A stretch of 46,676 nt of DNA, from NCBI GenBank assembly GCA_029250825.1, contig JAQXEN010000055.1:1-46676 (forward strand), read 5' to 3'. The position numbers and the translations under genes were made by a program. This document shows, in pieces, positions 17,559 to 44,932 of this stretch. The DNA comes from Porticoccaceae bacterium. Lineage in GTDB: Bacteria > Pseudomonadota > Gammaproteobacteria > Pseudomonadales > Porticoccaceae. Below the pieces are notes generated by a model, which saw nothing but the letters and a program-made list of their open reading frames with translations, did not search any database and was not told the DNA's origin. Each line of letters begins with the position of its first letter. The stretch's first letter is position 1.

Positions 17559-18437
17559 ATGACGACCATGCCACAAGAGGCAAATAACTATATTTTCACC
17601 GGCACCTGTCGCGCAGGCAGTGGCGTAGTTGCAGCAGTGACAACCTATCTAGCCGAGCGCGGCTGTTATATCTGCGCCCTTGAGCAGTTTGACGATGATT
17701 CCACAGACAAGTTTTTTATGCGCGCCGTATTTCGTCCGCAGCAGAATTCGCCATCAATTGACGATATCAGAGCATCCTTTAGTGAAGTATCTGACAGCTT
17801 CGAAATGGATTGGAATATTCACGATCCCAAGGTGCCAGTTAAAACCCTGATTATGGTTTCAAAATATGATCACTGCCTGGACGATATTTTATATCGCCGC
17901 CGCAAAGGGGAATTCAATATGGAGGTCACCGCAGTGGTGTCCAATCATACTGACCTGCGAGCCATGGTTGAGCGCGAGGGCATTTCCTTTATCCACCTGC
18001 CGATAACCAAAGATACCAAAGCTCAGCAGGAACAGCGGCTGCTGGAAATTGTCAATGAAACCGGTACCGAGTTGGTGGTGTTAGCGCGCTATATGCAGAT
18101 TCTCTCCAATCAGCTGTCAGCCCAACTATCCGGTCGCTGCATCAATATTCACCACTCTTTTCTGCCCGGATTTAAAGGTGCCAAACCCTATCATCAGGCC
18201 TATGAACGGGGCGTAAAAGTGATCGGTGCGACCGCTCACTATGTTACTTCAGATCTCGATGAAGGTCCCATTATCGAGCAGATTTTGACCCGCGTGAACC
18301 ACAACTACAAACCGGAACATCTGGTCAGAGTCGGCCGCGACAACGAGAGCATGGCCCTGACTAAAGCTATTACTTATCACATCGAACGGCGAGTGTTTCT
18401 CGACGGTAACAAGACAGTGGTGTTTTTAGGCGGCTAA
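17559..18437 (+). CDS. purU: Formyltetrahydrofolate deformylase
   Basis: A 292-residue enzyme that hydrolyses 10-formyl-THF to THF and formate. An N-terminal ACT domain (FTGTCRAGSGVVAAV..., residues 10-90) is followed by the formyltransferase fold, with NIHHSFLPGFKGAKPY (catalytic His region) and ATAHYVTSDLDEGPII (catalytic Asp) in the expected order. It lies 28 bases before soxB and opens the purU-soxBDAG operon. Sarcosine oxidation loads methyl carbon onto THF, and purU can free THF again, so the context fits C1 disposal from N-methyl groups. The exact N-terminus is not certain: a second Met lies three residues in. Confidence 0.93.
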   Translation: MTTMPQEANNYIFTGTCRAGSGVVAAVTTYLAERGCYICALEQFDDDSTDKFFMRAVFRPQQNSPSIDDIRASFSEVSDSFEMDWNIHDPKVPVKTLIMVSKYDHCLDDILYRRRKGEFNMEVTAVVSNHTDLRAMVEREGISFIHLPITKDTKAQQEQRLLEIVNETGTELVVLARYMQILSNQLSAQLSGRCINIHHSFLPGFKGAKPYHQAYERGVKVIGATAHYVTSDLDEGPIIEQILTRVNHNYKPEHLVRVGRDNESMALTKAITYHIERRVFLDGNKTVVFLGG

Positions 18438-19707: not shown

Positions 19708-19726
19708 TAAGAGAGGGGAGAGAGCA

Positions 19727-20056
19727 ATGAAACTATTAACCTGCCCTTTAAATGGCCCGCGCAATATTAGCGAGTTCACCTACGGTGGTGAGTATCATCC
19801 TATGCCGGACCACCAACAGGTCGCGGCACGGGAGTGGGCGGAGCATGTATTCTTCCATGACAATGCCGCCGGTGTGGTTATCGAATGGTGGTGTCACAGC
19901 GCCAGTTCTTACTGGTTTTTAGCCGAGCGCAATACCATCAGCGATCAGATATTGCGGACTTTCCCCGCTGATGAAATCTTTACCCAGCGCATCGACTTCG
20001 AGCCAGCGCCCGAGCCAACTATCAACGCAACTCCCACTGCGGGAGAGAGCCAATAA
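19727..20056 (+). CDS. soxD: Sarcosine oxidase delta-subunit homologue with altered zinc site
   Basis: A 109-residue small subunit. The start at 19727 follows GAGAGGGGAGAG and gives the typical N-terminus. The Zn2+ of the characterised Stenotrophomonas delta subunit is bound by Cys6, Cys9, His59 and Cys63. Here residues 6-9 read CPLN, so Cys9 is Asn, and the later motif is WWCHSASSYWF, so Cys63 is Ser. Only one Cys and one His of the four appear to remain. The stop overlaps the soxA start by one base (TAATG), so the genes are translationally coupled. This matches a variant clade of delta-like proteins rather than the canonical subunit. Confidence 0.88.
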   Translation: MKLLTCPLNGPRNISEFTYGGEYHPMPDHQQVAAREWAEHVFFHDNAAGVVIEWWCHSASSYWFLAERNTISDQILRTFPADEIFTQRIDFEPAPEPTINATPTAGESQ

Positions 20057-22973: not shown

Positions 22974-23678
22974 ATGTCATCGACTACCCCTAACCAAATA
23001 GCCACCAACGCTCTGCGTCGCAGCCAACTGTATCGCCGTCATATGGCCATGAGTGCGGCTTTTGAAGCACTTACGGACAGCACAGTGGTGTCTTGTTACG
23101 GCACCGGTGAAGGGGAACTGAAGCAGGCACAGCACCTTGGTCTGGCGGATCTCTCAACCCTGCCACGCGCGGGTTTTAAAGGTCTGGGCACCCCGGACTG
23201 GGCCGCGGGTCAGGGACTCCAACTGCCTGTACAGCCCAATCGAGCCAATCTGCAAGATGACGGCACATTGGTTGCCCGTCTGTCTCAGACTGAGCTGTTA
23301 TTGGCCAGTAACTTGGATGGACTGTCTGAGAGCATTGCCAATATTTCTCTGGGTTCGCAGCTGCCGGAGCGGGTCTATAGTTTGCCCCGCAGTGACAGTC
23401 ACAGCTGGCTAGTACTCTGTGGTAGCCAAGCAGCAGCCACCCTATCCAAAGTCTGCGGTGTCGATTTGCGCCCCCACAAGTTTGCCAATGGCGAAGTGGC
23501 ACAGACCTCCATTGCAAAAATCAACGGGGTATTGGTGCGCAATGATCTGGGCGAAACCCTCAGCTACAGTATTTTTAGCGACAGCAGCTCGATTGAGTTT
23601 TTATGGGATAGCCTGCTCGATGCTATGGCGGAATTTGAAGGTACCGCGGTGGGTATTCAGGCACTGCGAGACTGTTGA
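22974..23678 (+). CDS. soxG: Sarcosine oxidase gamma subunit
   Basis: A 234-residue subunit with the GcvT-related fold of SoxG; it has no catalytic role of its own in characterised enzymes. The N-terminus (LYRRHMAMSAAFEAL) and LRPHKFANGEVAQTSIAKINGVLVR are recognisable, although the family is weakly conserved. The start is two bases after the soxA stop. It ends the purU-soxBDAG operon. The sequence after it is occupied by a broken toxin-antitoxin pair on the other strand. Confidence 0.9.
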   Translation: MSSTTPNQIATNALRRSQLYRRHMAMSAAFEALTDSTVVSCYGTGEGELKQAQHLGLADLSTLPRAGFKGLGTPDWAAGQGLQLPVQPNRANLQDDGTLVARLSQTELLLASNLDGLSESIANISLGSQLPERVYSLPRSDSHSWLVLCGSQAAATLSKVCGVDLRPHKFANGEVAQTSIAKINGVLVRNDLGETLSYSIFSDSSSIEFLWDSLLDAMAEFEGTAVGIQALRDC

Positions 23679-26754: not shown

Positions 26755-29385
26755 TTAGATTATCAAGCCAGGATCCTCATCCATATCCCCTGACAGATCC
26801 GCAGTCTGAGCCAGTGAAACAGTGGCCGTGGAAATGGCAAAAGATTGACTGCCATAATCTGACGGCAGGTGCTCATCAGTCCAGCCCAGAGAAGCCACTT
26901 TACTCTCAATCATCTGCTCAACCTCTGCCGCGGAATAATCTACCGAGAGAAGAATTTCACGGGTGGACTGGCCATGTCGCTCAGTGGCAGACACCGACCG
27001 AATCAAACTGTTTGTTGGTCGAATGGCATAGTGGTCGATCTGGGTCAGACAGTGTCCACTGGGGTGATTGGCATCAATTGAAAAAGCAAAGCTGCCCAGA
27101 TCAATACCGACAAACCCATCCGCCTCGCGACTGTACATAGCACGCAGGGTCTCAATAGACTGAGGCTGTGCCGCAGCGATATCAGCGGCGACAAAACGCT
27201 TAACCCACTCCTCCGAAGAAGCCTGTTGAAAGGCCACGGTCAAAAAGGTTTGAATATCGCCGGCTATGGCGATGCCCTGAAGACCGGGTACATCGGTTTC
27301 CAGACGGGCAAGATCTCCATCACTGGCATCGATAAAAATCCAGTCATCCCAGGTTTTATAAAAATGAGACAGAGCATGGTTGCCCATAGCTGCGCGACCA
27401 GAAGGCTCGTTAAACGGCTCCAGCCCGGCATAATCAAAACAAAATGGCAGCTGCGCCAGATTGGTTACAGCAGACAGGGATGTGCGCGCCCGGCAGGCAA
27501 CGCCGGTTTTTAAGTGATGGTAGAGGGCAACCGCCATACCGACACCGCCGGCAAAACCGCAGTTAACATCCAGAGTTCCCAAGTGGGCGTGCTCTTCTGG
27601 TGTCTCGAGCCCACCAAAGCGCGACATGATGCCGCTATTGGCCTGAATAATATCGTCATAACCGATGTAGTTGGTTTTGGAGCCAGTGCTGGGGCCGCCA
27701 AAACAATCGAGGCGACAAAACAGCACACCGGGATTAATTTTCTGCAAACTATCATGATCCAACCCGAGGCTGACCATCTGTCGCTCGGGGGCATTGATCA
27801 CCACCATATCGACACTGCGCACCAAGCGTTCAAAGGCCTCACGCCCCTGAGTCTGATTGATATCAATCAGACCGCTGCGCTTACCCATGTCCGACTGAAA
27901 CGCAAACAGCGTACCGATCAGTGGGTCATAAGTGGGCACCACCGACTGCAGCTTAATAATATCGGCGCCAAAGCGCGCCAGAAAAGCGGAGGAATGTGGT
28001 CCGGCAATAACATTGGTCAGATCGAGAATACGCACGCCATCGAGCCAACCCGTCTTGTCCATCCAATTGGTTTGCCCATCGCCCTTAGAGATCTTAGGGC
28101 GGGTGACGGTCTCAGCCGCAGCCACCGCTTTTAACAGCTCCAGAGCCACATCAAAACTCACCATTGTGCGGGGTTTTGGCGCTAGCATCAGATGCGCAGA
28201 ATCCTCCAGCCAGGTTATGGGACCCGGCTGCTTCATCAAACCATATTCCGCATCATTGACCTCAACAATCAGACCTGCGCTATTGCAGTGATCGCTGTTA
28301 ACCCACTCGTTGGTGGTGCGATGAGGGGCACCGGGTATTTTACCCTGACCAAAAATAACGCCCCATTCGTCAGAGCTCTTGGTGAGAAACACCAGCTTCA
28401 TTTTTTCAGCAATAATATCCGCCCATTTTTTCGGCAACGGATAGACACCAATAGAGGTTTCTCCGTCCCACTGGCTAACCGGCGCATGCAGGTCTGTGGT
28501 ATCCGGAAGCCCTTCGGCAACCAATTCCTCATAGAGACCCAGCACTTCTAAACAGCGTCGCGCGTGGGTCCGGTGAGATGGACAGACACAGTAAAACTTG
28601 CGGCCATCGGCACAATCATAGCTGCGGTAAAAGGGATCCAGATATTCCTGTAGCGCGTCATAGCTCAGGTCAAAGGGAATATTGGCCTGATTGCGGCGCT
28701 CGATCTCAAGCTCACGCATGGTCTTGTAGCGCTCGGGCAGTCCATCGACAACATAGGAGTTGTAGGACAGCCCTTCCATCATCGCCGCAACCACAGGTAC
28801 TTCAATACTGTCGCCGCTACCGGTTTTTTCCCGACCAAAGAGCGCCAGAGCCAATGCGCTAGCACCGAGACAGGTGGCGTAAGAGGAACCCAGTGGCAGT
28901 GGCGAAAAGCAGGGATTGAGGCCCATCAAAACACGGTTAAAGCCCATATCGGTGAAGGCGCCGGCGGTGGCAGCCACCACTGCTTCAGTGGCTTTCCAAT
29001 CGCGGCGCAGTTGGTCATTGCTGGCAAAACCAGGCATCGACAGAGTGATCAATTCGGGACGCTGCTCGCGCAGCTGTTGAAAGTCGACACCGAGCTTTTC
29101 CAGCACACCGGGGCGGAAGGATTCAATCACAATATCAGCCTGACCGATTAGGCTCAGAGCCTGAGAGAGACCCTGTTGGCTTTTTAAATCCAGGCGCAGG
29201 CAGCTCTTGTTGCGGTTTAAAATAGCATTGGCAGCGTGATCCCACTGGGGACCCTGGGGTGGATCTATATGGATCACCGTGGCGCCCAGATCCGCCAAGA
29301 CCATAGCCACTGCAGGTGCCGCTATTTGCTGACCGAAATCGATAACCCGAACGCCAACAAGTGGCAACTGAGCTTGTTTTTCCAT
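26755..29385 (-). CDS. dddD: DMSP CoA-transferase/lyase DddD
   Basis: An 876-residue fusion of two class III CoA-transferase domains, each with its own Rossmann start: VGVRVIDFGQQIAAP (~10-24) and DGVRILDLTNVIAGPHS (~449-465). DddD of Marinomonas uses acetyl-CoA and DMSP to give DMS and 3-hydroxypropionyl-CoA, with catalytic Asp602. Here the matching Asp is D606 in HLGTLDVNCG of domain 2, while the same place in domain 1 reads PLGSSYA and lacks the Asp. The length, domain order and single Asp fit DddD; the C-terminal ~40 residues extend beyond the usual length. The gene is divergent from dddB-dddC, which supply the next steps. The start ATG follows AGGGGTC. A different acyl substrate is possible but less likely given the neighbours. 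Confidence 0.88.
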   Translation of the reverse strand: MEKQAQLPLVGVRVIDFGQQIAAPAVAMVLADLGATVIHIDPPQGPQWDHAANAILNRNKSCLRLDLKSQQGLSQALSLIGQADIVIESFRPGVLEKLGVDFQQLREQRPELITLSMPGFASNDQLRRDWKATEAVVAATAGAFTDMGFNRVLMGLNPCFSPLPLGSSYATCLGASALALALFGREKTGSGDSIEVPVVAAMMEGLSYNSYVVDGLPERYKTMRELEIERRNQANIPFDLSYDALQEYLDPFYRSYDCADGRKFYCVCPSHRTHARRCLEVLGLYEELVAEGLPDTTDLHAPVSQWDGETSIGVYPLPKKWADIIAEKMKLVFLTKSSDEWGVIFGQGKIPGAPHRTTNEWVNSDHCNSAGLIVEVNDAEYGLMKQPGPITWLEDSAHLMLAPKPRTMVSFDVALELLKAVAAAETVTRPKISKGDGQTNWMDKTGWLDGVRILDLTNVIAGPHSSAFLARFGADIIKLQSVVPTYDPLIGTLFAFQSDMGKRSGLIDINQTQGREAFERLVRSVDMVVINAPERQMVSLGLDHDSLQKINPGVLFCRLDCFGGPSTGSKTNYIGYDDIIQANSGIMSRFGGLETPEEHAHLGTLDVNCGFAGGVGMAVALYHHLKTGVACRARTSLSAVTNLAQLPFCFDYAGLEPFNEPSGRAAMGNHALSHFYKTWDDWIFIDASDGDLARLETDVPGLQGIAIAGDIQTFLTVAFQQASSEEWVKRFVAADIAAAQPQSIETLRAMYSREADGFVGIDLGSFAFSIDANHPSGHCLTQIDHYAIRPTNSLIRSVSATERHGQSTREILLSVDYSAAEVEQMIESKVASLGWTDEHLPSDYGSQSFAISTATVSLAQTADLSGDMDEDPGLII

Positions 29386-30965: not shown

Positions 30966-31005
30966 GTCTTTTTATAACAGGTCTTTTTATAACAGGTCTT
31001 TTTAA
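30966..31005. repeat. 15-bp tandem repeat between dddB and dddC
   Basis: The unit GTCTTTTTATAACAG occurs at 30966-30980 and 30981-30995, followed by a partial third copy (GTCTTTTTAA). It starts right after the dddB stop. The AT-rich tract after it leads to the dddC ribosome site (AAAGGAAAC). It may be polymorphic between strains. Confidence 0.85.
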
Positions 31006-31077
31006 TTACAAGAGTCTCAATTAACAGAGCCTTAATTAAATAAAATATTTTTAACACTTTCTTAAAGGAAACAAATC

Positions 31078-33395: not shown

Positions 33396-34307
33396 ATGAA
33401 AAAGAGACTGCCCCCACTCAACTGGTTGCGCTCCTTCGAAGCCGCTGCCCGCCACCTTAATTTCACTCTGGCTGCCGCCGAATTGAATATGACTCAGGCA
33501 ACTATTAGTCAGCAGATTAAAGGTCTCGAGTCACAGCTTGGCTGTGCATTGTTTATCCGTTTACCTCGGGGTTTAGAGCTGACCGATGCCGCCCGTGCCT
33601 ATATTCCCGGTGTTCGCGAATCCATTGAAAAACTCGCGGTAGTCACTGACGAGGTGTTTGGCAAAGAGCGCAGCCACACTCTTACCGTGCGCGTTAATCT
33701 GGTGTTTTTCAACACTTGGCTGGCTCCGCGTCTGGCGGATTTTCGGCGCAACTATCCGGATATTGATCTGCGCTTTACCAGCAATATCTGGTTGGATTCA
33801 GTCAACAAAGAGGCGGATATCGAAATCCGTTATGGCAAAGGCATGTGGCCGGATTTAATCAGTGATCGGCTGACCTGGGATCAGTTGATTCCGGTCTGTA
33901 GTCCGAAGCTATTGAGCGGCGACCACAGCAGTCGCGAGACACTGCCGCCAACCACCGCAGAACAGCTGACAGAGCACACGCTGCTGCATGTTATCGGCTA
34001 TGAAGAGGGTTGGGGCTACTGGCTAAAGAAACTCGGCCATCACAGTATCGATGCCTCTCAGGGCATTCACTTCGACTCATTGATCACGGCTATGGAAATG
34101 GCGGTGCAGGGACATGGTATCGCTCTTGGCCGCACCTCTCTGGCAGCAACTCTACTGGAGTCTGGACGGTTGATTAAGCCCTTTGATGAAGGAGTCTCCA
34201 CCGAGGAAGCATTCTTTATCGCGATCCCCTCCAACAAACCTATTCAAAGCCATGTGCAGGCATTTCGCAGCTGGGTGATTCATCAGGGCCAGAGTGCGCG
34301 TTACTAG
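33396..34307 (+). CDS. LysR-family regulator, GcvA-like; candidate DddR
   Basis: A 303-residue LysR protein. The N-terminus PPLNWLRSFEAAARHLNFTL is the GcvA/AmpR-type start, followed by TQATISQQIKGLESQLGCALF (helix-turn-helix). The effector domain spans ~93-295. It lies 15 bases after iclR, so two regulators share the end of the dddBC transcript. In Marinomonas a LysR protein, DddR, activates the ddd genes; this one may be its equivalent, although sequence alone does not prove it. It is convergent with the 242-aa gene. Confidence 0.87.
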   Translation: MKKRLPPLNWLRSFEAAARHLNFTLAAAELNMTQATISQQIKGLESQLGCALFIRLPRGLELTDAARAYIPGVRESIEKLAVVTDEVFGKERSHTLTVRVNLVFFNTWLAPRLADFRRNYPDIDLRFTSNIWLDSVNKEADIEIRYGKGMWPDLISDRLTWDQLIPVCSPKLLSGDHSSRETLPPTTAEQLTEHTLLHVIGYEEGWGYWLKKLGHHSIDASQGIHFDSLITAMEMAVQGHGIALGRTSLAATLLESGRLIKPFDEGVSTEEAFFIAIPSNKPIQSHVQAFRSWVIHQGQSARY

Positions 34308-34328: not shown

Positions 34329-35057
34329 TTAGCCAGCGCCGGCCCGGGAGCTATCCGTGGATTCAACAAGGATTCTGGCGACCAGGTCATCGAGGGTATG
34401 CCAAAGCGCTTCATCGATCTCTATGCCCTGCTCTAACGAGTCTCTGTAGCTGTCCATCATTTCTTCCCCGGTAAAGGTTTCGAGCAGTGTGCCAAACTGC
34501 AGCTGGGCTGCATACTGTTCTTCAATCAGCGCCAAATCTGCCCCGCAAAACAGCCTGAGAGATTGGGGATCAAGGGTCTCAGTGATAGTGAAAGTCTGAT
34601 ATTCCGGCAGCTCGGCCCCCGCTTCGATAGACACCTTGACGCAGTAATCTAGCTGCCGCCAATAGGCAATAAAGGCGTAATTCCGCTGCGCCGCTTTAAC
34701 CAATCGCTGTAAAATAAAGCTTCGGTTATAACAGTTAACCAGCTCCAGCCCGGCGCTAAAGCCCGGCACCACCTGAGATCTGATCAGATCAACCGCTTCA
34801 GCTCCACAGAGCAAAATTGAGGTGCCTTTGCCATCGAGCACTGAATCATGGGCATCTTCCTGAATCAGGTCCGCATGAATCGGCGCCGTGGTATTCAAAT
34901 AGTTTAGAGCCGCCTGCAGTCGATCGAAGCCATCAAAACCATGGGTCTCTAACCAGATCACCATATCCGCGGCATCACTGTAGTCGCCGGGCTGGAACCC
35001 CAAGCCCTCAAACGCCTTCCTCAGGGAAGCCATCAATTCATTTTTAGATACTTTCAT
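34329..35057 (-). CDS. Unassigned 242-aa protein, possibly DUF3726-like
   Basis: A soluble, acidic protein with no signal peptide, no membrane helix and no motif I can tie to a reaction. The first 50 residues (MKVSKNELMASLRKAFEGLG, then ETHGFDGFDRLQ) resemble the N-termini of DUF3726 proteins and, weakly, the N-terminal helices of Ldh2-type dehydrogenases; I hold this loosely. The middle has GKGTSILLCGAEAVDLIRS and a run of aromatic residues (YAFIAYWRQLDYC). It is the last gene of the BCCT operon, only 5 bases after the 583-aa protein, so the two are probably made together and may form a complex. Function unknown. Confidence 0.75.
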   Translation of the reverse strand: MKVSKNELMASLRKAFEGLGFQPGDYSDAADMVIWLETHGFDGFDRLQAALNYLNTTAPIHADLIQEDAHDSVLDGKGTSILLCGAEAVDLIRSQVVPGFSAGLELVNCYNRSFILQRLVKAAQRNYAFIAYWRQLDYCVKVSIEAGAELPEYQTFTITETLDPQSLRLFCGADLALIEEQYAAQLQFGTLLETFTGEEMMDSYRDSLEQGIEIDEALWHTLDDLVARILVESTDSSRAGAG

Positions 35058-35062
35058 GGTGC

Positions 35063-36814
35063 TCAGCGCGCAGTTAACACAGGTTTGATTGGAAACTGCC
35101 AGTCATCGACAAAGGGTTTGCCAAAATCACTGATCAGCGGAGCGCCCTGAAACATAGTATTGCGTACCCAGAGGCGTGAACGGGGGTCAAACTTGCTGAC
35201 GCCAAAAAACGACAGCTTGCAGCGCAGCAAATGAATGGGCAGCACATCCGCATCAATCAGATTTCCGCGAATTTCACCGTACTGACTCTCGGCCATAGTT
35301 TGAATACGGGCGACAATGCCACTGTAATGGGGGTTGTTCAGAATAAAGTGCGCAACATTTTGCCGCGGGTGGGCCTGATGGTAGTCATGCAACAGGTTGT
35401 AGCATTCCCGTACCCGGCGACCGATGGCCAGCGGCATTTCTTTTTCCATGCCCATATCAAAATTGGTTTGACCGAGGCGCGGTTCCATTTTCTCTTGGGA
35501 GCGATACCAAAACACGCCCATTGACTCAAAACGCTCAAAGTCGATGGCGAGAGCCCAGTCGTATTTATCTTCGGTAATCTCCAATAACTGGGCGACAGAC
35601 ATTTCTGGGGTAACCTGATGGGACTCCTCTACCCCCATCTGCTCCTCAAGGCCATCAACCAGCTCTGGATAGAGTTCGATCAGCAGTGTATTAATCACTT
35701 CCTGAGTCTCTATACCCCATTGCTGTTCGGCGTACTGGACTAGATCCGCCCAGACAAAATGTGCCTTAGCCAGGGCAGCGCCCTGCTCTTGTAGCCATCG
35801 ATGAAGCAGCTGTAATTCGCCTCGCACCACCACATTGGAGTTACTCTGACGCTCGTCAGCGGTGATAATTTCACCGAGGTGTTGAATAACCCGCAGTGTC
35901 GCTTTATCCAGTCGTTCGAGGGTCGCCTTATCAACACCGGTCTCACTGGCGGCAACTACGGTAGCCAACGCCGTTTCACGCATTTCAATCCACTGATTGA
36001 TTAACAGCGGATGGTTAATTAAAAACGGCGCCATTCCAAGACCCGTGGAATTGCCAATACCAATATAGCGTTTGATATCTTGATGCAGTGGCACCGCAGT
36101 ATCTGGCGCCCGTTGGGCAGCCAAATAATCCGCCTGCTGCATACTAAAGTGACGCAACATATAACAGGTGAACATCTCAGCGGCAAAGGGCCGGGCAAAG
36201 TCGCGATGCTTGGTGCGAACCTTTTCCCAGTCCGCCATACCCAGCTTGCCACTGCCATAGGCTGCAGTGGTGCGATAGAGGTAACCCACTTCGGCAATAA
36301 CATCCACATCAGGTTGACGGCCAAGGGTCAGTTCATCCACCACATAGTCAAAGGTACGGGCGCTGCGATTGGCGCGGGATAGCACCAGCACTCTGGAGTC
36401 CACACGCCCGGCTTCCTGTTTCGGAACATTGGCACGCAAGAATTCAAGCTGTTCAGCATCCACTGTGCCTTCACAGAGGGCCATAGTCAGATCCCACTGA
36501 TTGGCGATAACCCGATCATTGCGATTATCTGGATCCAGATAATGGGAGAAAAGCACATAGCTAAAGATGCCGAAGGTAGCATCGATCTGATAGACCACGG
36601 TGCCATAACCCTGCTCATCGAGATCAAATACCGAGCTGGTTATCTGCCAGTTCTCCGCCACCATGCGCCGAATTAGGGTACGCATAAAGCTGAGACGTGA
36701 TTGATGTAAGCTACCCAGACGTTCCAACTGCATAACCTGACTGGCAGGACGCAGCGGCAAAATCTGTGGATTGCTATGGGTTTGTTGCCCTAATGACTGC
36801 GGATCTTTCTGCAC
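35063..36814 (-). CDS. Unassigned 583-aa protein in the BCCT operon
   Basis: A large cytoplasmic protein with no signal peptide, no transmembrane helix and no enzyme signature I recognise. Seemingly conserved-looking blocks are FMRTLIRRMVAENWQI (~43-58), GYLYRTTAAYGSGKLGMADW (~177-196), IGIGNSTGLGMAPFLINHP (~250-268) and SKFDPRSRLWVRNTMFQGAP near the C-terminus. It is mostly helical with many His, Arg and acidic residues. The start is GTG at 36814 with AGG upstream; a Met at residue 28 is the next choice. It is flanked by the BCCT transporter (23 bases upstream) and the 242-aa protein. An enzymatic role in breaking down the transported compound is a guess from context. Confidence 0.78.
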   Translation of the reverse strand: MQKDPQSLGQQTHSNPQILPLRPASQVMQLERLGSLHQSRLSFMRTLIRRMVAENWQITSSVFDLDEQGYGTVVYQIDATFGIFSYVLFSHYLDPDNRNDRVIANQWDLTMALCEGTVDAEQLEFLRANVPKQEAGRVDSRVLVLSRANRSARTFDYVVDELTLGRQPDVDVIAEVGYLYRTTAAYGSGKLGMADWEKVRTKHRDFARPFAAEMFTCYMLRHFSMQQADYLAAQRAPDTAVPLHQDIKRYIGIGNSTGLGMAPFLINHPLLINQWIEMRETALATVVAASETGVDKATLERLDKATLRVIQHLGEIITADERQSNSNVVVRGELQLLHRWLQEQGAALAKAHFVWADLVQYAEQQWGIETQEVINTLLIELYPELVDGLEEQMGVEESHQVTPEMSVAQLLEITEDKYDWALAIDFERFESMGVFWYRSQEKMEPRLGQTNFDMGMEKEMPLAIGRRVRECYNLLHDYHQAHPRQNVAHFILNNPHYSGIVARIQTMAESQYGEIRGNLIDADVLPIHLLRCKLSFFGVSKFDPRSRLWVRNTMFQGAPLISDFGKPFVDDWQFPIKPVLTAR

Positions 36815-36837
36815 AGCGCTACCTAACTATCAAGTGA

Positions 36838-38364
36838 TTAAATCAGGCCCTGTTCGGAGGCCATCGTTTTTGCCAACCTTGGAGCATTCCAAAGCGACGG
36901 TAATAAAATCAGTGATACGGGGACTGCAGTCACCACGATAAATGACTGTAACGCAGTTACGCCGCCAGACCCAATTGAGATCAATATAGCGGCCAGCACA
37001 CCCATCATAATGCCCCAGAACACACGCAGTGCTGTGGGCGGATTATCGGTACCGGTCATGACCATAGAAACGGTGTAGGTCATGGAGTCGCCAGTGGTGG
37101 CAACAAAGATCGTTGTCAGCACCAAAAACAGTACTGAGACTAAAAAGCCCCAGGGCAACTGCTGGGTTATGGCCAACAGGGCTGCCGGCATACCAGAGGC
37201 GGCATAGGGAGCAGAGATCACTCCGGGGTTAGCAAGCTCAAAAGCAATGCCAGTGCCGCCGACAATAGTAAACCAGAAATAAGTTACCAGCGGTGCAATT
37301 AATGACAGGGTAATAATCAATTGGCGAATCGTACGGCCGCGAGAAATGCGCGCAATAAACATTGCCATAAGTGGGCCATAGCCAATAAACCAGCCCCAGA
37401 AAAATACCGTCCAGCCATTCACCCAACCGCTATCTGCGCGGTAACTGGCCATGGGAATAAACTCAGTAATCAACACACCCACGGACTGAATAAAGCTATC
37501 AAAAATAAACGCCGTTGGCCCTACCAATAAAATAAAGCCCATCAACAGAATCGATAAACCAATATTAAACGAGCTCAGTATTTGAATACCCCGAGTCACA
37601 CCTGACACTGCGGAGACCGTGTAGATTGCGATCAGACCCAGAATAATAATCAACTGTGTACTGTAACTGTCGCTGACACCAAACAGTTCCGAGAGGCCAA
37701 AGCTGGCCTGCAGCCCTAAAAAGCCAATCGGCCCTACCGTGCCTGAAACCACAGCCACAACTGAGGCAGCATCGATAAAGGCACCCATCCAGCCATGCAA
37801 AACTCGCTCACCAAACACCGGATAGAGCAAAATACGGGGTTTTAGGGGCAGACCTTTATCGTAGTGCAAATACATAAAAATAATTGCAGTGAGACTGCCG
37901 AGAATAGACCAGGATAAAAAGCCCCAGTGCATGTAACTCTGAGCCAGAGCCGGGTATACCGCCTCGGGACTGGCAGACTCCACATCGAATAGTGGCGGCG
38001 AAGAAATAAAGTGCGCCATAGGCTCTGCCGCAGCCCAAAATACACCGCCGCCAGCCAGCAGCGTACACATAATAATCGCCACCCACTTAAAGGTGCTGAT
38101 ATCCGGTGCACTGAGATTGCCCAATCGCGCCTTACCGGAATCGCTTATCGCCACAGCCAGAGCAATCAAAAAGGTTAATAGCATTAAGACTTGCCAGTAA
38201 GCGCCAAACAATGTGGTGGCACTGCCAAAAGCACTGTTCACCAGCGCCGACAACAGATCAATATCCAGCAGCGCAATGGCGACAAACAACAGCAAGAAGC
38301 CGCCGCTCAAAATAAACACCGGCCAGTCGATGGCCGGTGATTTTTCGCTATGCTGCTGAGTCAT
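36838..38364 (-). CDS. BCCT-family betaine/choline/carnitine-type transporter
   Basis: A 508-residue inner-membrane carrier with about 12 hydrophobic helices. The family signature GWTVFFWGWFIGYGPLMAMF followed by IARISRGRTIRQ (~317-349) contains the aromatic residues that bind trimethylammonium or dimethylsulfonium groups. The glycine stretch CTLLAGGGVFWAAAEPM (~99-115) is the region that decides coupling ion in BetP-type carriers. There are no long terminal extensions, so osmosensing is unlikely and substrate uptake for growth more probable. Its start overlaps the dipeptidase stop (ATGA). DddD clusters usually carry a BCCT transporter, DddT, so this may import DMSP; but it is locked in the other operon, and could serve that pathway's own betaine. 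Confidence 0.92.
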   Translation of the reverse strand: MTQQHSEKSPAIDWPVFILSGGFLLLFVAIALLDIDLLSALVNSAFGSATTLFGAYWQVLMLLTFLIALAVAISDSGKARLGNLSAPDISTFKWVAIIMCTLLAGGGVFWAAAEPMAHFISSPPLFDVESASPEAVYPALAQSYMHWGFLSWSILGSLTAIIFMYLHYDKGLPLKPRILLYPVFGERVLHGWMGAFIDAASVVAVVSGTVGPIGFLGLQASFGLSELFGVSDSYSTQLIIILGLIAIYTVSAVSGVTRGIQILSSFNIGLSILLMGFILLVGPTAFIFDSFIQSVGVLITEFIPMASYRADSGWVNGWTVFFWGWFIGYGPLMAMFIARISRGRTIRQLIITLSLIAPLVTYFWFTIVGGTGIAFELANPGVISAPYAASGMPAALLAITQQLPWGFLVSVLFLVLTTIFVATTGDSMTYTVSMVMTGTDNPPTALRVFWGIMMGVLAAILISIGSGGVTALQSFIVVTAVPVSLILLPSLWNAPRLAKTMASEQGLI

Positions 38365-39356
38365 GCTCGCGCCTTGCCGACAAAAGACTTATCAAAAAAT
38401 GATAGCCAATTCTGACCCATTATTTTGCCGATATCGGTGTCGCTAAAGCCCACATCTTCAAGACCCTGAGCAACAGTGTGCATATCCTTTGACCCAACAA
38501 ACCAGCTTGGCTGACGCGGCCATGCGGGACTAGCAGCAGTGCCCTCCCCATGGTCGATGCCCATAGTCCAACGGCCACTGCGCATCCATTCGAGCACCGA
38601 GTAATCCCAGTTTTCGCAGAGATCTGAACCAATACCTAGTCGGTCGATACCAATCATTTCCGCGGTTTGCATAATCATCTGGCAAAACTCGGGCAGGGTG
38701 CAGTCCGAGCCATTTTTTAGGTGAAACGGATACATGCTAAAACCCAACATGCCCTCAGATTCGCCAATTGCCCGCAGCACTCTGTCGGATTTGTTGCGCA
38801 GTGCCCCGTGAAAGAAACCCGGGTTTGCGTGGGTGATAGCAATTGGTCGTTCAGAGATTTCAATCGCCTCGAGGGTCGACTTTTCAGCACTGTGGGACAT
38901 ATCAATAACCATGCCCACGCGGTTCATCTCTTGGATAACCTGTTTGCCAAAGCGGGTAATACCGCCGTCTTGTTCTTCATAGCAGCCGGTGGCCAACAGA
39001 CTCTGATTATTATAGCTGAGCTGCATTATCCGCACCCCCAGCTGGTGCAATATCTGCACCATCTTCACATCATCTTCAATGGGCGAGCAGTTTTGAAAAC
39101 CAAAGATAATACCCACTTTTCCAAGGCGCTTGGCTTCAAGGATATCTGCCGCGCTGTGCACGGGCATAATCAGATCCCCGTGATCGAGAAAGTGACGATT
39201 CCAGTGACCAATATTTTCCAGTGTCTCGCGACTATTTTCCCAATAGGCGATGGTCACATGAATAGTATGCATTCCGGCCCGCTGAGCCTGTTCAAATAGT
39301 TCTCGATTCCAATTGACGTATTGCAGGCCGTCAATCAGGAGCATATCTTTGTGCAT
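38361..39356 (-). CDS. M19 renal-dipeptidase-like protein with altered metal site
   Basis: A 331-residue TIM-barrel protein of peptidase family M19. Canonical members have an HxD pair early on (DGHNDxP) and a bridging Glu; here the first motif reads LIDGLQYVNWN (residues 7-17), and the stretch where I would place the Glu reads FGFQNCSPIEDD (85-96). H155 (DMSHSAE), H176 (ITHANP) and the Asp of LGIGSDL are kept. The same DGLQY-type M19 form occurs in the dimethylglycine/glycine-betaine gene region of Pseudomonas (PA5396), so it is a betaine-associated clade. It may hydrolyse another amide or C-N bond, or use one metal. It overlaps the BCCT gene by 4 bases. Confidence 0.88.
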   Translation of the reverse strand: MHKDMLLIDGLQYVNWNRELFEQAQRAGMHTIHVTIAYWENSRETLENIGHWNRHFLDHGDLIMPVHSAADILEAKRLGKVGIIFGFQNCSPIEDDVKMVQILHQLGVRIMQLSYNNQSLLATGCYEEQDGGITRFGKQVIQEMNRVGMVIDMSHSAEKSTLEAIEISERPIAITHANPGFFHGALRNKSDRVLRAIGESEGMLGFSMYPFHLKNGSDCTLPEFCQMIMQTAEMIGIDRLGIGSDLCENWDYSVLEWMRSGRWTMGIDHGEGTAASPAWPRQPSWFVGSKDMHTVAQGLEDVGFSDTDIGKIMGQNWLSFFDKSFVGKARA

Positions 39357-39369
39357 GGCTGGCTCCCTC

Positions 39370-40815
39370 TTAGTAGGGCTTGCTGTAGTTGGTTTTTATA
39401 ATGGTGTAAAACTCGCGAGCATACTGACCCTGTTCCCGCGGGCCGTAACTTGAATTTTTGCGGCCGCCAAAGGGCACGTGATAGTCGGTACCTGCGGTGG
39501 GCAGATTGACCATCACACAGCCTGACTGTGAGTGACGCTTAAAATGGCCGGCATGCTGTAATGAGTTAGTGATAATCCCCGAGGTAAGACCAAACTCGGA
39601 GTCGTTCGACACCTCAAGGGCCTCTTCATAACTGGCAACTTTGATCACACAGGCGATGGGGCCAAACACTTCTTCACGATTGATACGCATCTTGTTATGA
39701 GTATTTACAAACAGTGTCGGCGACATAAAGTAGCCTTCAGTGTCTAGCTGCAGTCGCTCACCACCCACTGCTAACTCGGCACCTTCATCTTTGGCAATCT
39801 GGATATACTCGAGATTCTGTTCAAGCTGACGGGCATCGACCACCGGGCCAATCTGGGCGCCTTCGGTCAAGGCATGACCCACAACCAGCTGGCTCACTGC
39901 TGCGCTGAGCTTTTCCACAAAGGCATCATGGATACCCGCTTGGACGATAATTCTTGAGGAAGCAGTGCATTTTTGACCGGTACCGAAATAGCCACCGGCA
40001 ACCGCACAGCTAACCGCGGTATCCATATCCGCGTCATCTAATACCACCAGCGCATTTTTGCTGCCCATCTCCAACTGTACTCGAGCCATATTGTCGATGG
40101 CATTGCGGGCAATATGACGACCAACACCCACGGAACCAGTGAAGGTTACCGCTTGAATATCAGCGGAGGTACAGAGAGTCTCACCGACATCGCGGCCAGA
40201 ACCCATAACCAGATTAAACACACCAGCGGGCAGACCGCTGCGGCTAATAATATCCGCTAGGATCCAGGCGCTGGCAGGAACCAGCTCAGCGGGCTTCAGG
40301 ACTACAGCATTGCCATAGGCCAGAGCCGGCGCCACTTTCCATGCCGCCACTGCCATAGGGAAATTCCAAGGGGTGACTATGCCGATAACACCGAGAGCTT
40401 CGCGGTGCACTTCTACATCCACACCGGGACGCACTGACTGGGTATTTTCCCCCATCAGACGCAGAGATTCGGCGCCATAGTATTGAAAGAATTGACCTGA
40501 GCGATAGACCTCGCCAACGCCTTCGGCGCGAGTTTTGCCCTCTTCCCGAGCGAGAATCTCACCGATTTCACCGCTGCGAGCAATCAGCTCTGCACCAATA
40601 AAGTCGAGTACCTGCTTGCGCTGCTCCAAGCCGCTCTGAGACCAGCCAGCAAAGGCGGCATTGGCTGCCGATATAGCTGCAAGGCAGTCTTCCGGGGACG
40701 CTTTGGCGTAATGCCCGACTACATCGCTGGTGTCTGAAGGGTTAATATTTTCTATTACTGCTGAGCTACCAACCCACTGGCCATTAATATAGTTCTGGAA
40801 CACTTCGTGACTCAT
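39370..40815 (-). CDS. NAD(P)-dependent aldehyde dehydrogenase, 2-oxoglutarate-semialdehyde-dehydrogenase-like
   Basis: A 481-residue aldehyde dehydrogenase. Catalytic Cys is C283 (FGTGQKCTAS) and the general base E249 (QLEMGSKN). The QLEMGSKNA form and the C-terminal motif GTDYHVPFGGRKNSSYGPREQ are those of the group with 2-oxoglutarate (2,5-dioxopentanoate) semialdehyde dehydrogenases of sugar-acid and hydroxyproline catabolism. It is first in the operon ALDH-M19-BCCT-583-242, with a strong GGGGAG before the ATG and 13 bases to the M19 gene. A semialdehyde from a C5 skeleton is the likely substrate by homology; the upstream steps are unknown. Confidence 0.9.
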   Translation of the reverse strand: MSHEVFQNYINGQWVGSSAVIENINPSDTSDVVGHYAKASPEDCLAAISAANAAFAGWSQSGLEQRKQVLDFIGAELIARSGEIGEILAREEGKTRAEGVGEVYRSGQFFQYYGAESLRLMGENTQSVRPGVDVEVHREALGVIGIVTPWNFPMAVAAWKVAPALAYGNAVVLKPAELVPASAWILADIISRSGLPAGVFNLVMGSGRDVGETLCTSADIQAVTFTGSVGVGRHIARNAIDNMARVQLEMGSKNALVVLDDADMDTAVSCAVAGGYFGTGQKCTASSRIIVQAGIHDAFVEKLSAAVSQLVVGHALTEGAQIGPVVDARQLEQNLEYIQIAKDEGAELAVGGERLQLDTEGYFMSPTLFVNTHNKMRINREEVFGPIACVIKVASYEEALEVSNDSEFGLTSGIITNSLQHAGHFKRHSQSGCVMVNLPTAGTDYHVPFGGRKNSSYGPREQGQYAREFYTIIKTNYSKPY

Positions 40816-40973: not shown

Positions 40974-41876
40974 ATCAACCACTTAAATGTCAGTCTCCGA
41001 CACTTGCGCAGCTTTATTGCGGTGGCCAATGAGGGCAGCTTTAACCGTGCGGCGGAAAAACTCTCCCGCACCCAACCGGCTATTACCTTAGCAGTAAAAC
41101 AACTCGAAGAGTTTATTGGCTTAAAGCTTCTGCAACGCACCACACGGAATGTCAGCACTACTGTGGAGGGGGAAAACTTTTTGCCTATTGCGGAACGTCT
41201 GGTACGGGATTTTGACAGTGCAATCTATGATCTGAGAGCCACCGCAGAGGGTCGCAGTGGCCATGTGAGCATGGCCGCAGTGCCCTCGGTAGCCACCAAC
41301 CTGCTTCCCGATATTATCAAAACCTTCGCCACTGAATTTCCCGGTATTAACCTGCATCTGGACGATGATAGCTCTCGGGGTGTGCAGGGGCGTGTGGAGC
41401 GCAATGAGGTGGACTTTGGCATAGGCAGTATGTGGAATCCCAATAAGCTACTGGAATTCACACCGTTGTTTGCCGACAAGCTTGAATTGATCTGTCACCG
41501 AGATCATCCCCTGGCTCAAAGCACTGACATGATTGGCTGGGAGCAACTGAATAAGGTGACCTTTCTTGACACTGGTGTCACCAAGGCCCTGAGAGCGCGC
41601 CAAGACTTGGGGGAATCGAAGTTTGATTTCCCCAATATCACCACATTGATAGCCATGCTCAGATCTAATCTGGGTGTTTCGGTGCTGCCCTCTCTGGCGA
41701 TACCGAAATCATCAGACGATCTAGTATCGAGGCCACTCACACCCACTGAGTCCAGTGAAATCTATCTGATTACCCGCAACGACTGGGCCCTTTCTCCAGC
41801 CGCTGAGGCAATGATTGAGACGATTATCCGCGAGACGCCTCAACAGGTGGCGAAGTACGGTTTAACGATTCTTTAA
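40974..41876 (+). CDS. LysR-family regulator with an unusual start
   Basis: About 300 residues; the winged helix reads HLRSFIAVANEGSFNRAAEK then LSRTQPAITLAVKQLE. The first standard start, TTG at 41004, cuts the first helix. The same frame is open upstream and gives INHLNVSLRHLRSFIAVA, a full LysR N-terminus, yet it has no ATG, GTG or TTG. AAAGG lies 7 bases before an ATC at 40974, so a rare AUC start, or a 1-2 base error or mutation after the ATG at 40987, would explain it. It is divergent from the ALDH-BCCT operon, with a dyad between, and is its likely regulator. Its stop abuts the reductase stop. Confidence 0.85.
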   Translation: MNHLNVSLRHLRSFIAVANEGSFNRAAEKLSRTQPAITLAVKQLEEFIGLKLLQRTTRNVSTTVEGENFLPIAERLVRDFDSAIYDLRATAEGRSGHVSMAAVPSVATNLLPDIIKTFATEFPGINLHLDDDSSRGVQGRVERNEVDFGIGSMWNPNKLLEFTPLFADKLELICHRDHPLAQSTDMIGWEQLNKVTFLDTGVTKALRARQDLGESKFDFPNITTLIAMLRSNLGVSVLPSLAIPKSSDDLVSRPLTPTESSEIYLITRNDWALSPAAEAMIETIIRETPQQVAKYGLTIL

Positions 41877-42896
41877 TCAGCTGGCACTATTGATAAACTC
41901 AACACAGCTAGCATGAGTCTTGGCACTTACAGTAACCCCTTCCGCAGCGCTTTTGGCGCGATTGGCATAGCGGCGATTGCCTGGAATACGCGCGCCCTCC
42001 ATCCCTGCCAAGCGCTCTAAGAATTCCTCGGAGTGGTTTAACCATCCCTCGGCGTCACCAAAAGCACTAGGATCTATGGCGAGCATAAATTCACCGCCAT
42101 TCGGTGGACCGCCATCGTTATTGTCATTCTTCTGAGCTTCGTAACTGAAGTCCATACCGGTAAGACCGGCGACGAGCAGCTCAATCATCATGGCGATGGT
42201 AGAGCCCTTATGGCCGCCAAAGGGCAGCAGCGCGCCGCCATCAATAATCTTTTGCGCGTCTGTGGTCTGATTGCCATCCCCATCGACACCGGTTCCCATT
42301 GGCACAGGATGGCCATCTCGGGCGGCGATCATCACCTCTCCCCGCGCCATAGACGCAGAGGCCTGATCAAATACCATCGGCGGTTTGTCACCGCGGGGCC
42401 AACCAAAGCACATCGGGTTAGTGCCAAAGAGAGGCTCTTTGGCGCCAGCGGGCACCACAGCGGGCTTGTAGGTAGTAAAGGCCATCGCCACTAATCCAGC
42501 TTCGGCAATGGGTTCAACCTCAACCCAGAGCGCGGCGAAGTGATGCACATTGACCAGTGCCATAGCCGCAATACCATTCTCCCGAGCCGCTTCAATTAGG
42601 GCTTCACGACCCTTTTCTAGGGCCAGTGGGGCGTAGCCATGATCACCGTCAACCTTGACCACTGCTGGGGAGATACGAGTAACGCTTGGGTTGGCATTGC
42701 CATTGACCTTACCACTGCGCAGGGAGGCAATATAGCCAGGCATGCGGAATAAACCGTGGGAGGCACTGCCGTCGCGCTCGGCTGAGGCAATGGTGCGCCC
42801 CAGCGCTTCAGCGTTATCGCTGTTACAACCATTGGCTACCAAACATTGCTCTACCAACTGCTGAATTTCTCTTTCAGTCATTACTATTTCAGTCAC
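41877..42896 (-). CDS. Ldh2/MDH-family reductase, similar to piperideine/pyrroline-2-carboxylate reductase DpkA
   Basis: A 339-residue NAD(P)H enzyme of the malate/L-lactate dehydrogenase (YlbC/Ldh2) family. ASAERDGSASHGLFRMPGYI (~32-51), VHHFAALWVEVEPIAE (~117-132), FGTNPMCFGWP and GGALLPFGGHKGS are close to Pseudomonas DpkA, which reduces delta1-piperideine-2-carboxylate and delta1-pyrroline-2-carboxylate to L-pipecolate and L-proline. I start at GTG 42896 because the extra TEIV matches DpkA's N-terminus; ATG at 42881 is possible. Its neighbour is the operon with a C5-semialdehyde dehydrogenase and betaine carrier, so a role in cyclic imino-acid metabolism is attractive. Other Ldh2 substrates (malate, lactate, ureidoglycolate) are less likely. 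Confidence 0.87.
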   Translation of the reverse strand: MTEIVMTEREIQQLVEQCLVANGCNSDNAEALGRTIASAERDGSASHGLFRMPGYIASLRSGKVNGNANPSVTRISPAVVKVDGDHGYAPLALEKGREALIEAARENGIAAMALVNVHHFAALWVEVEPIAEAGLVAMAFTTYKPAVVPAGAKEPLFGTNPMCFGWPRGDKPPMVFDQASASMARGEVMIAARDGHPVPMGTGVDGDGNQTTDAQKIIDGGALLPFGGHKGSTIAMMIELLVAGLTGMDFSYEAQKNDNNDGGPPNGGEFMLAIDPSAFGDAEGWLNHSEEFLERLAGMEGARIPGNRRYANRAKSAAEGVTVSAKTHASCVEFINSAS

Positions 42897-42952: not shown

Positions 42953-44932
42953 TCAAGAGGGATATCGATCTAACACTGGACCCAAGGCTTCTTTTAACGG
43001 ATCTAAGTAAGGCTCAAAATTCTTCCACTGATCAATACCGCCACGATAGATAGGCTGACGTACCTGCTCAGAAGAGGGTGTTCGCACCGCGCGCTCGGTT
43101 TTATAAAAACTTAAGCAGGCCTCTTCAAAGGGCAGTCCACAGTAGTTCAAAATTCGACGTACCTGGGTCTCAAAGTCGTTGACCACATCCTCGTACTGCA
43201 CATGCAATATTTGCTCGGGAAAGGCCGTCTGCCAGAAGTCCATCAGCGACTCGTAGTCGCGGAAATAGGTTCCAGCATCAGCAAGGTCATAACTAAAGGC
43301 CTGACCTTCAGCAAACAGCTGTTTGTAACCACTAAAGCAACAGCCCAGAGGATGACGGCGGGCGTCGATAATCTTGGCGTTGGGCAGCATCAGTTTAATC
43401 AAGCCAATATGCCTAAAATTGTTCGGCATCTTGTCAATAAAGAATGGCGCACTCTGACGGTGAACCTGAGTATCAGCAATATACGCTTCGCCAAACTCAC
43501 GATATTTGTTGCTATCTAGGGTTTCTAAAATGCCCGGGTATAAATTATCCCCAGTCATATTGCCGCCTCTACGCAGCTCGTTTACCAACGAGAGAACATT
43601 GGGCAATTCAAGGGTGCCGTCCACCTGACTGTGAGAGGACAGTATTTGCTCTAGTAGGGTCGAACCCGCACGAGGTAAACCGACCACAAAGATTGGATCA
43701 GCTGCACTGTGCCCAGAGTCCTTGGCAGCGCCAATAAACTCGGGGCTAAAGACCTGTTTTTGCTGATTAAATTCATCGGTCATCTGCTCTGCAGAATAGC
43801 GACTCTGAGCTTTTTTCGCTTTATTGCCTGCGGCGTAATGACTAAATGCCTGATCAAATTTTTCCGCATCTTCAAAGGCTTTGCCCAGAGAAAAGTTGAT
43901 ATAGACCCGATCCATAAACTTTAAGTCATCGCCCTTTAACTGCGCGAGCATTTTGCCAATATCGTCATCATTGAACTTGACCGTTTTTAGGTTCGCCAGA
44001 GAATGCCAAGCTTCACCATAGGCGACACTGCTCTGAGTGGCCTTTTTGTAGGACGCAATAGCCTCGGGAGTATTGCCGCGAGTCTTTAGGGCGTGCCCTT
44101 TTGATGTGAGTGTTACCGGATCCCCAGGGATCTTGGCAAGAACACTATCAAACAGCTCTAAAGCCCTGTCATAGTCGCCCATCTGCATACATAAAACCGC
44201 ATATAGCGATTCAAAATGGACATTGCTAGGGTTGTCTTTGTAGAGCGTTAGAACCTCTGCATGAGCAGCTTCAATCTTTTGTCGCTTGCGCAGGGCTTCA
44301 ATATAGTCAACCCGCAAGAGGTCATTTTCAGGTTCCAGCTTAAGCGCACTTTCGAGTAAAAACTCGGCATCATGGAGTATATTTAACTTCATACCCACAT
44401 CTGCGAGAAGCCTCATGGCCTCTACATGGTGTGGACGCTGCTTTAAAAATTCCCGACACAGGTCCTCTGCATTGGACAGCTTGCCTTGGGCAATATGGTC
44501 CATTGCCGCAATCAATGACGGCGGCATTTTCAAAACCCGTTCCAAATGAGGCTTTAATCGAAGCGCCTCTGGTTCTCGATTTTGCTTGAGCAATATCTCA
44601 ATCTGTCCGCGCCAACTTCCCTGCAATGAGGGATTAGCATGGGTAGCTCGGGTGTACAGGTGCAGTGCCTGCTTTAAATTGCCCTTGGCACGATGAATAT
44701 GGCCCTCTTCCTGAAGACCTCGTCCATAACTCGGGGCAATTTTTCGCAATGCCTTTAACTGCTCCAAAGCCTCATCTAATCGGTTGAGGTATCTCAGACA
44801 AACTGCGCTGTAATAAAAAGCATCAACACTGCTAGTCTGGGTTTCAAAGATAGACGCTAAGGCTACAAGGGCATCATCAAACCGCTTATCACGCATCAAT
44901 TGTTCAATCTGAATCTTGTCTTGTTGGTTCAA
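42953..44932 (-). CDS. TPR-repeat sulfotransferase
   Basis: A 659-residue protein: about eleven tetratricopeptide-type helical repeats (residues ~1-390) followed by a PAPS-dependent sulfotransferase domain. The 5'-phosphosulfate loop is VVGLPRAGSTLLEQILSS (~416-433), and DKMPNNFRHIGLIKLMLPNA with DARRHPLGCCFSGYK is the 3'-phosphate-binding region. The start is TTG at 44932, supported by AAGGA 8 bases upstream; no ATG fits. It lies downstream of a TonB-dependent receptor gene, a pairing common in marine gammaproteobacteria, perhaps to sulfate a surface or substrate molecule; the acceptor is unknown. An intrinsic terminator separates the two genes. Confidence 0.88.
   Translation of the reverse strand: MNQQDKIQIEQLMRDKRFDDALVALASIFETQTSSVDAFYYSAVCLRYLNRLDEALEQLKALRKIAPSYGRGLQEEGHIHRAKGNLKQALHLYTRATHANPSLQGSWRGQIEILLKQNREPEALRLKPHLERVLKMPPSLIAAMDHIAQGKLSNAEDLCREFLKQRPHHVEAMRLLADVGMKLNILHDAEFLLESALKLEPENDLLRVDYIEALRKRQKIEAAHAEVLTLYKDNPSNVHFESLYAVLCMQMGDYDRALELFDSVLAKIPGDPVTLTSKGHALKTRGNTPEAIASYKKATQSSVAYGEAWHSLANLKTVKFNDDDIGKMLAQLKGDDLKFMDRVYINFSLGKAFEDAEKFDQAFSHYAAGNKAKKAQSRYSAEQMTDEFNQQKQVFSPEFIGAAKDSGHSAADPIFVVGLPRAGSTLLEQILSSHSQVDGTLELPNVLSLVNELRRGGNMTGDNLYPGILETLDSNKYREFGEAYIADTQVHRQSAPFFIDKMPNNFRHIGLIKLMLPNAKIIDARRHPLGCCFSGYKQLFAEGQAFSYDLADAGTYFRDYESLMDFWQTAFPEQILHVQYEDVVNDFETQVRRILNYCGLPFEEACLSFYKTERAVRTPSSEQVRQPIYRGGIDQWKNFEPYLDPLKEALGPVLDRYPS

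Follow-up and report, generated by a model that had tools for sequence, protein, structure and literature searches.

A widespread bacterial operon that probably serves the catabolism of homarine or a related N-methylated zwitterion

Genes of the window

The DNA analysed (46,676 nucleotides of a Porticoccaceae bacterium, contig JAQXEN010000055.1; hereafter the window) contains five packed minus-strand genes that encode an ALDH, an M19-family protein, a BCCT-family transporter, a 583-aa protein (P583), and a 242-aa protein (Table 1). Their spacings, re-measured as 13 bases, an overlap of 4, 23, and 5 bases, agree with an earlier sequence-only reading of this DNA, and a Pfam profile search confirmed the ALDH, M19, BCCT, and LysR assignments in the window. 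The same reading placed one divergent LysR gene ahead of the operon; this gene is present and is likely the regulator of the operon, but a second LysR gene, of the GcvA type, lies at the other end. A LysR cluster is found in 72 of 105 loci. The functional unit is probably larger than the five genes first listed, with Ldh2/DpkA and mgdABCD belonging to it too, and the TPR-sulfotransferase gene is a repeated neighbour across loci.

Table 1. Features of the operon and its surroundings in the window.
Feature	Position	Strand	Basis or remark
PurU, formyltetrahydrofolate deformylase	17559..18437	+	adjoins mgd
MgdA, N-methylglutamate dehydrogenase FAD subunit (sarcosine-oxidase-beta-like)	18466..19707	+	identity comparison
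MgdB (SoxD-like)	19724..20056	+	position between mgdA and mgdC only
MgdC (SoxA-like)	20056..22971	+	identity comparison
MgdD (SoxG-like)	22974..23678	+	position and conservation in island
Two-domain CaiB (DddD-like)	26755..29385		Pfam; beside operon
GcvA-type LysR	33396..34307	+	at 3' end of operon; kept in congeners
242-aa DUF3726 protein	34329..35057	-	Pfam PF12525
P583 (583-aa protein)	35063..36814	-	GTG start
BCCT-family transporter	36838..38364	-	ORF list and Pfam, 503.7 bits
M19-family protein	38361..39356	-	ORF list and Pfam
ALDH	39370..40815	-	ORF list and Pfam
LysR	41004..41876	+	Pfam; divergent from operon
Ldh2 oxidoreductase, DpkA (delta1-piperideine-2-carboxylate reductase) type	41877..42896	-	Pfam and structure-sequence match
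TPR-sulfotransferase	42953..44932	-	upstream of Ldh2

The ALDH had been described as KGSADH-like and the 2,5-dioxovalerate/KGSA dehydrogenase profiles are indeed the nearest, but both scores are under the curated cut-offs (499.8 bits versus 750 and 487.4 versus 770).

The M19 protein, P583, and the DUF3726 protein

The M19 protein matches PF01244 (246 bits, cut-off 26) and its nearest solved relative is 2i5g (E 4.5e-67), which we take to be a protein from P. aeruginosa. The binuclear metal ligands of M19 dipeptidases are HxD, Glu, His, His, and Asp. The operon protein belongs to the same sequence family as the renal dipeptidases and has in common with them His, His, Asp, and Arg (His155, His176, Asp245, and Arg187 in the window), whereas HxD and the bridging Glu, replaced by Gln in the window, are lost throughout the group examined. 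In particular, in an alignment of 95 rows including the window, the Glu position is occupied by Gln in 93 rows and by a gap in 2, the HxD positions are L in 91 rows and Y in 90 rows, and the full ligand set is absent from the group, in agreement with the earlier remark that the usual dipeptidase ligands are missing. An M19 paralogue on another contig of the same genome (C81) keeps Glu at the aligned position and its sequence contains HGD, although its N-terminus was misaligned.

P583 and the 242-aa protein had both been listed as unassigned. This stands for P583, which gave no Pfam or NCBIfam match at E 0.01 and whose AF2 model (pLDDT 88.9, pTM 0.89) has no clear fold match among solved structures, but not for the 242-aa protein, which matches DUF3726 (49.3 bits versus a cut-off of 22.1) and has a known fold. 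Profile and fold similarity to the Ldh_2 superfamily assign to it a shortened Ldh_2 fold, about 100 residues shorter than that of the malate/lactate dehydrogenases, and the DG.ASHG motif of the latter falls in a gap of the DUF3726 profile alignment; the SHG histidine motif, which has a catalytic role in the Ldh_2 superfamily, is not conserved in the alignment of DUF3726 proteins. The proposal that the two proteins form a pair is borne out, the DUF3726 gene following P583 in the same orientation at a distance of at most 2.6 kb in 96 of 103 loci and fused to it in one more. The gene set occurs widely yet has been little studied; P583 belongs to no known family, and two of the other proteins resemble inactivated relatives of known enzymes. 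P583 and the DUF3726 protein thus offer a way to study how folds that look inactive are put to new use next to a protein without classification.

Conservation, RidA/Ldh2 exclusion, and Mgd association

Across 103 P583 loci the genes are associated more than by chance: within 9 kb of P583, M19 is found in 94 loci, ALDH in 82, and BCCT in 69. Glycine-betaine ABC transporters occur at some P583 loci and, together with BCCT, they back in most loci the betaine-type substrate suggested at the outset; six congener islands are without the operon's BCCT between M19 and P583. The operon had been presented as a candidate new one, which is not supported: its gene order recurs outside its own genome, it is widespread, and it probably corresponds to the homarine operon described in 2026.

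The best solved matches of the window Ldh2 are 1wtj/2cwf/2cwh (E 1.5e-90, the next being 1.4e-41), DpkA being the nearest solved structure, and the Ldh2 of TM1040 is likewise nearest to delta1-piperideine-2-carboxylate reductase; the window protein is a probable imine reductase. PMC6110843 describes DpkA both as an imine reductase and as an N-methyl-amino-acid dehydrogenase; the window Ldh2 differs from it in genomic setting and, probably, in an acyclic dicarboxylic substrate. RidA and Ldh2 are mutually exclusive (0/103 loci with both), and the switch between them takes at least six changes on one FastTree tree.

Compared with a SoxB and a SoxA that each exceed the cut-off of their family, MgdA is 43% identical to the SoxB and 71% to a protein of a gmaS-like cluster, and MgdC is 35% identical to the SoxA and 58% to its gmaS-cluster counterpart; both window proteins score under the soxB and soxA cut-offs, and MgdB has no NCBIfam match at E 1e-20. 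The N-methylglutamate (methylamine) pathway, gmaS-mgsABC-mgdABCD, shares with the window MgdABCD and the purU neighbour, which also adjoins an Acinetobacter gmaS-like cluster, but it includes GmaS, of which none was found at E 1e-60 in the 36 genomes searched, among them the Mgd-bearing genome of the window; N-methylglutamate must therefore come from elsewhere. The mgd genes are directly downstream of P583-DUF3726 in HTCC2148 and at two other loci (L086, L100), and follow BCCT at a further one (L089).

Mgd without GmaS (E 1e-60) is present in 8/18 non-RidA genomes versus 0/21 RidA genomes. In a class sample of 274 genomes P583 occurs in 6/19 genomes with MgdA versus 6/255 without it (Fisher 3.5e-5, a significance overstated by the related genomes in the samples); conversely, 13 of the 19 MgdA genomes are without P583 and six of the 12 P583 genomes are without MgdA. 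P583 is found in 6/12 of the genomes with MgdA but no GmaS of at least 55% identity, and in 0/7 of those with such a GmaS. Five genomes other than that of the window combine P583 and this "orphan" Mgd with a 38-40% GmaS-like protein, in one case (G047) directly beside mgdA, so that their orphan state depends on the identity threshold; the genus of the window and the 8/18 non-RidA genomes are free of this weakness. At the roseobacter loci tested and at L032 the neighbour is a true sarcosine oxidase, not Mgd, and within the genus a SoxB-like gene tracks P583 as closely as Mgd does; since the genes form one island, joint inheritance could account for part of the P583-Mgd link.

Proposed pathway and alternatives

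On balance, we favour the view that the operon encodes the breakdown of an N-methylated zwitterion. The most likely substrate is homarine (N-methylpicolinate), and the gene set is probably that of the recently published homarine operon. Alongside the observed gene content, conservation, RidA/Ldh2 exclusion, and Mgd association, we infer the substrate, the reaction order, and every catalytic step, which most likely amount to uptake of the zwitterion, probably homarine, and its conversion to glutamate. The BCCT carrier would bring in the substrate; P583 with DUF3726 as its partner, together with the M19 protein of non-classical type, would open the ring and give an aldehyde, in a presumed order and by a presumed chemistry; the ALDH would oxidise the aldehyde, giving a dicarboxylic acid of the (N-methyl)imino or enamino kind. 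The Ldh2 of this genome, which is of the DpkA type, would reduce the imine to N-methylglutamate, which MgdABCD would demethylate to glutamate, while PurU would deal with C1. In other lineages RidA stands in place of Ldh2 and would probably hydrolyse this imine, yielding methylamine and a 2-oxo acid; compared with the published homarine pathway, RidA-type loci would form a branch releasing methylamine. The route from homarine to N-methylglutamate requires a one-carbon loss, for which no gene considered here clearly accounts. More tentatively, and at less than even probability, P583 could be an enzyme of new fold that opens the ring of N-methylpyridinium carboxylates, working together with DUF3726 as a pseudo-dehydrogenase subunit and with M19 as a pseudo-dipeptidase. 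The pathway would then have two exchangeable ways out of a single imine, hydrolysis by RidA or reduction to N-methylglutamate by a DpkA-type enzyme, and these would have replaced one another several times during evolution.

The homarine catabolism pathway published in 2026 (Ferrer-Gonzalez et al., Nat Microbiol 11:1531) reportedly comprises genes named homABCDER, five structural genes and a regulator, a set that this operon matches, with N-methylglutamate as the product. On this overall resemblance the operon is probably the same, and the carriers of both are environmental. Homarine, already named in the sequence-only reading, is retained as a candidate on the Mgd link seen here and on the 2026 report of Mgd participating in homarine catabolism, as cited in PMC13390433. 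It is a phytoplankton osmolyte rapidly drawn down by marine bacteria, according to PMC12817926. If the assignment is true, P583 would be a marker gene for homarine turnover, and the RidA/Ldh2 switch would predict methylamine release versus a methyl group kept as C1.

A different N-methylated compound (proline betaine, N-methylproline, hydroxyproline betaine, or trigonelline) might be the substrate in place of homarine and reach the same imino-acid intermediate, a doubtful reading that nevertheless carries some weight: BCCT and OpuA-type carriers are unspecific and the transporter type varies between loci (a branched-chain-type ABC transporter in Mesorhizobium L033, no BCCT beside the operon copy of P. 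inhibens DSM 17395), the hosts include terrestrial or plant-associated ones, Rieske and DMGDH-like genes are near P583 in 3/103 and 5/103 loci, and the genes that accompany a distant version in S. meliloti are different ones (for an ABC transporter, an aminotransferase, SSADH, and RidA). However, to our knowledge the known proline betaine routes use neither P583 nor DUF3726, and the Mgd link points to N-methylglutamate, reportedly the product from homarine.

It is improbable that P583, DUF3726, and M19 are accessory to glycine betaine, dimethylglycine, or sarcosine catabolism, even if sarcosine oxidase genes adjoin several P583 loci, the one such locus tested also having a GbdR-like regulator (203 bits, cut-off 480), 2i5g is the nearest solved M19 protein, and, according to PMC12093977, the dgcAB genes of Vibrio natriegens and P. 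aeruginosa are preceded by one for a predicted dipeptidase. None of the 51 RidA loci has an mgdA, soxB, or DMGDH-like neighbour and one has a Rieske gene, which is near P583 in only three of the 103 loci. Moreover, we know of no aldehyde or imine step of the kind proposed here that glycine betaine demethylation would need. DMSP catabolism, less probable still, is suggested by the two-domain CaiB, Fe-ADH, and MMSDH genes that adjoin the operon in the window and in congeners and by the DMSP demethylase genes next to the operon copy of P. inhibens, but the 21.7 kb locus of HTCC2148 (L043) has P583 and mgd with no DddD, Fe-ADH, or MMSDH matches. The GcvA-type LysR may have a role for the ddd-like genes.

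Composition and conservation of the operon

Checking of the gene coordinates confirmed the positions and spacings of the five minus-strand genes proposed by the sequence-only reading, and Pfam gives the same families for its ALDH, M19, BCCT and LysR proteins. Of the two proteins left unassigned there, the 583-aa one (P583) indeed has no match in profile searches of Pfam or NCBIfam, whereas its 242-aa partner belongs to Pfam DUF3726; likewise, the divergent LysR regulator is present, but a further one lies at the opposite end.

Coordinates of the operon and of associated genes in the window
Feature	Position	Strand or remark
MgdABCD-like genes, 'sarcosine oxidase'	18466-23678	
Two-domain CaiB CoA-transferase (876 aa), Fe-ADH, CoA-acylating MMSDH	26755-32574	
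GcvA-type LysR	33396-34307	far end of operon
DUF3726	34329-35057	minus
P583	35063-36814	minus
BCCT carrier	36838-38364	minus
M19	38361-39356	minus
ALDH	39370-40815	minus
LysR	41004-41876	divergent
Ldh2	41877-42896	
TPR-sulfotransferase	42953-44932	

The neighbourhood search suggested for P583 covered a non-random sample of loci, many ending at contig edges; 105 were clustered, and the P583 cluster is present in 103, the base of the counts. Its partners recur: same-strand DUF3726 lies within 2.6 kb downstream in 96 loci (about 1 kb off in three) and is fused to P583 in one (L033), while M19 (94 loci), ALDH (82), BCCT (69) and a betaine-type ABC ATPase (four) are found within 9 kb. The operon is a real, conserved, betaine-type system. 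Of 589 stretches that a pattern match picked from the genome collection, at least 578 carry P583, and the best 80 were kept. It also occurs in 168 plasmid records (E 1e-5), in 12 of 274 class-sample genomes, the window's own counted, and in 15 of 36 relatives, own included, all 15 being members of the own genus; hosts include Pseudomonas, Halomonas, Marinobacter, Vibrio, Psychrobacter, roseobacters, rhizobia, Bacillales and the haloarchaeon Natrinema.

A second copy (LysR-DUF3726-P583-BCCT), whose P583 is 82% identical, is truncated by the edge of contig C49 of the own genome (L016, 3875 bases). The Sinorhizobium meliloti homologue retrieved from plasmid records (about 31% identity) is part of a distant P583-DUF-M19 trio (pSymA 11944-15390, L034) adjoining IclR, an ABC transporter, an aminotransferase, SSADH and two RidA genes, and this trio probably serves a different substrate. 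On a Natrinema versiforme plasmid, archaeal P583 is accompanied by a partner resembling Ldh_2, by BCCT and by a gene of the dihydrodipicolinate-synthase family; in Phaeobacter inhibens DSM 17395, the operon is adjoined by a gene for DMSP demethylase and by others of dmd type.

Ldh2, RidA and N-methylglutamate dehydrogenase

The functional system probably extends beyond the five-gene operon of the sequence-only reading. Among solved structures, the top match of Ldh2, like that of its TM1040 counterpart, is delta1-piperideine-2-carboxylate reductase, DpkA (for the window protein E 1.5e-90; runner-up 1.4e-41); DpkA is an imine reductase making N-methyl-amino acids, according to PMC6110843. The 'sarcosine oxidase' genes of the window are, judged by similarity, MgdABCD-like: their products score under the sarcosine oxidase cut-offs, and MgdA and MgdC match Acinetobacter plasmid proteins at 71% and 58% against 43% and 35% for sarcosine oxidases passing their cut-offs; the Acinetobacter plasmid also encodes an amidotransferase and a glutamate ligase of type III that scores over the TIGR03105 cut-off. 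Mgd directly follows P583-DUF3726 in HTCC2148 and two further loci (L086, L100), and comes after BCCT in L089. The TPR-sulfotransferase gene also adjoins Ldh2 in L047, L049 and L060.

RidA proteins hydrolyse imines and enamines. RidA is found in 51 of the 103 loci, Ldh2 in 19 and neither in 33, and the two never co-occur (0/103; Fisher 5e-7, kinship uncorrected); the labels switch at least six times on one FastTree tree, and in Marinomonas (L055) Ldh2 holds the slot occupied by RidA in related layouts. Since RidA and the DpkA-type Ldh2 replace each other beside one ALDH, a shared (N-methyl)imino-acid product is suggested. Mgd should be needed by the reductive version only, so that the product in the own genome would probably be N-methylglutamate, then glutamate.

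MgdA was searched in 39 genomes (L048 left out) and found in 9 of 18 non-RidA and 3 of 21 RidA genomes; because all three of the latter (69-83% identity, 3-5 kb off) and one of the former (66%, same contig) have GmaS, Mgd without GmaS amounts to 8/18 versus 0/21 (Fisher 7e-4). GmaS at E 1e-60 was absent from 36 genomes, own included, the same query matching strongly elsewhere. In the class sample, P583 is present in 6 of 19 MgdA genomes versus 6 of the 255 lacking MgdA (Fisher 3.5e-5). Seven genomes have GmaS at 55% identity or more; each of them carries MgdA and lacks P583, which is present in 6 of the remaining 12 MgdA genomes (5/11 leaving out the own genome). Against an orphan Mgd, the five non-own genomes with both MgdA and P583 each carry a GmaS-like protein of 38-40%, so that 'orphan' there hinges on the threshold; in one of them (G047, C16:19767-22358) such a gene (38%) lies directly upstream of mgdA.

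Probable homarine catabolism and the congener islands

The homarine operon is reportedly named homABCDER and is reported to yield N-methylglutamate and glutamate; ALDH, M19, P583, DUF3726 and Ldh2, five structural genes, plus a regulator fit this name. The operon most likely belongs to this recently described system. This reading accounts neither for the one-carbon loss from homarine to N-methylglutamate nor for the roles of P583, DUF3726 and M19. What is new is detail on the parts and the two alternative exits. PMC13390433 cites a 2026 study as reporting Mgd participation in homarine catabolism, and PMC12817926 describes fast homarine drawdown by R. pomeroyi.

All six islands compared in five congeners contain P583, DUF3726, M19, Fe-ADH, MMSDH and mgd genes; DddD is present in five, and Ldh2 in both islands that extend far enough on either side. 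The operon's own BCCT is found in none of the six; in three, another BCCT (32-33% to it) adjoins Fe-ADH, and the operon BCCT adjoins P583 in three further congener loci (L142, L143, L154). The CoA-transferase, Fe-ADH and MMSDH genes of the window are similar to a DddD-DddB-DddC cluster for DMSP. One genome (G284) holds the P583-ddd-mgd island in two copies (L159, L160-L161).
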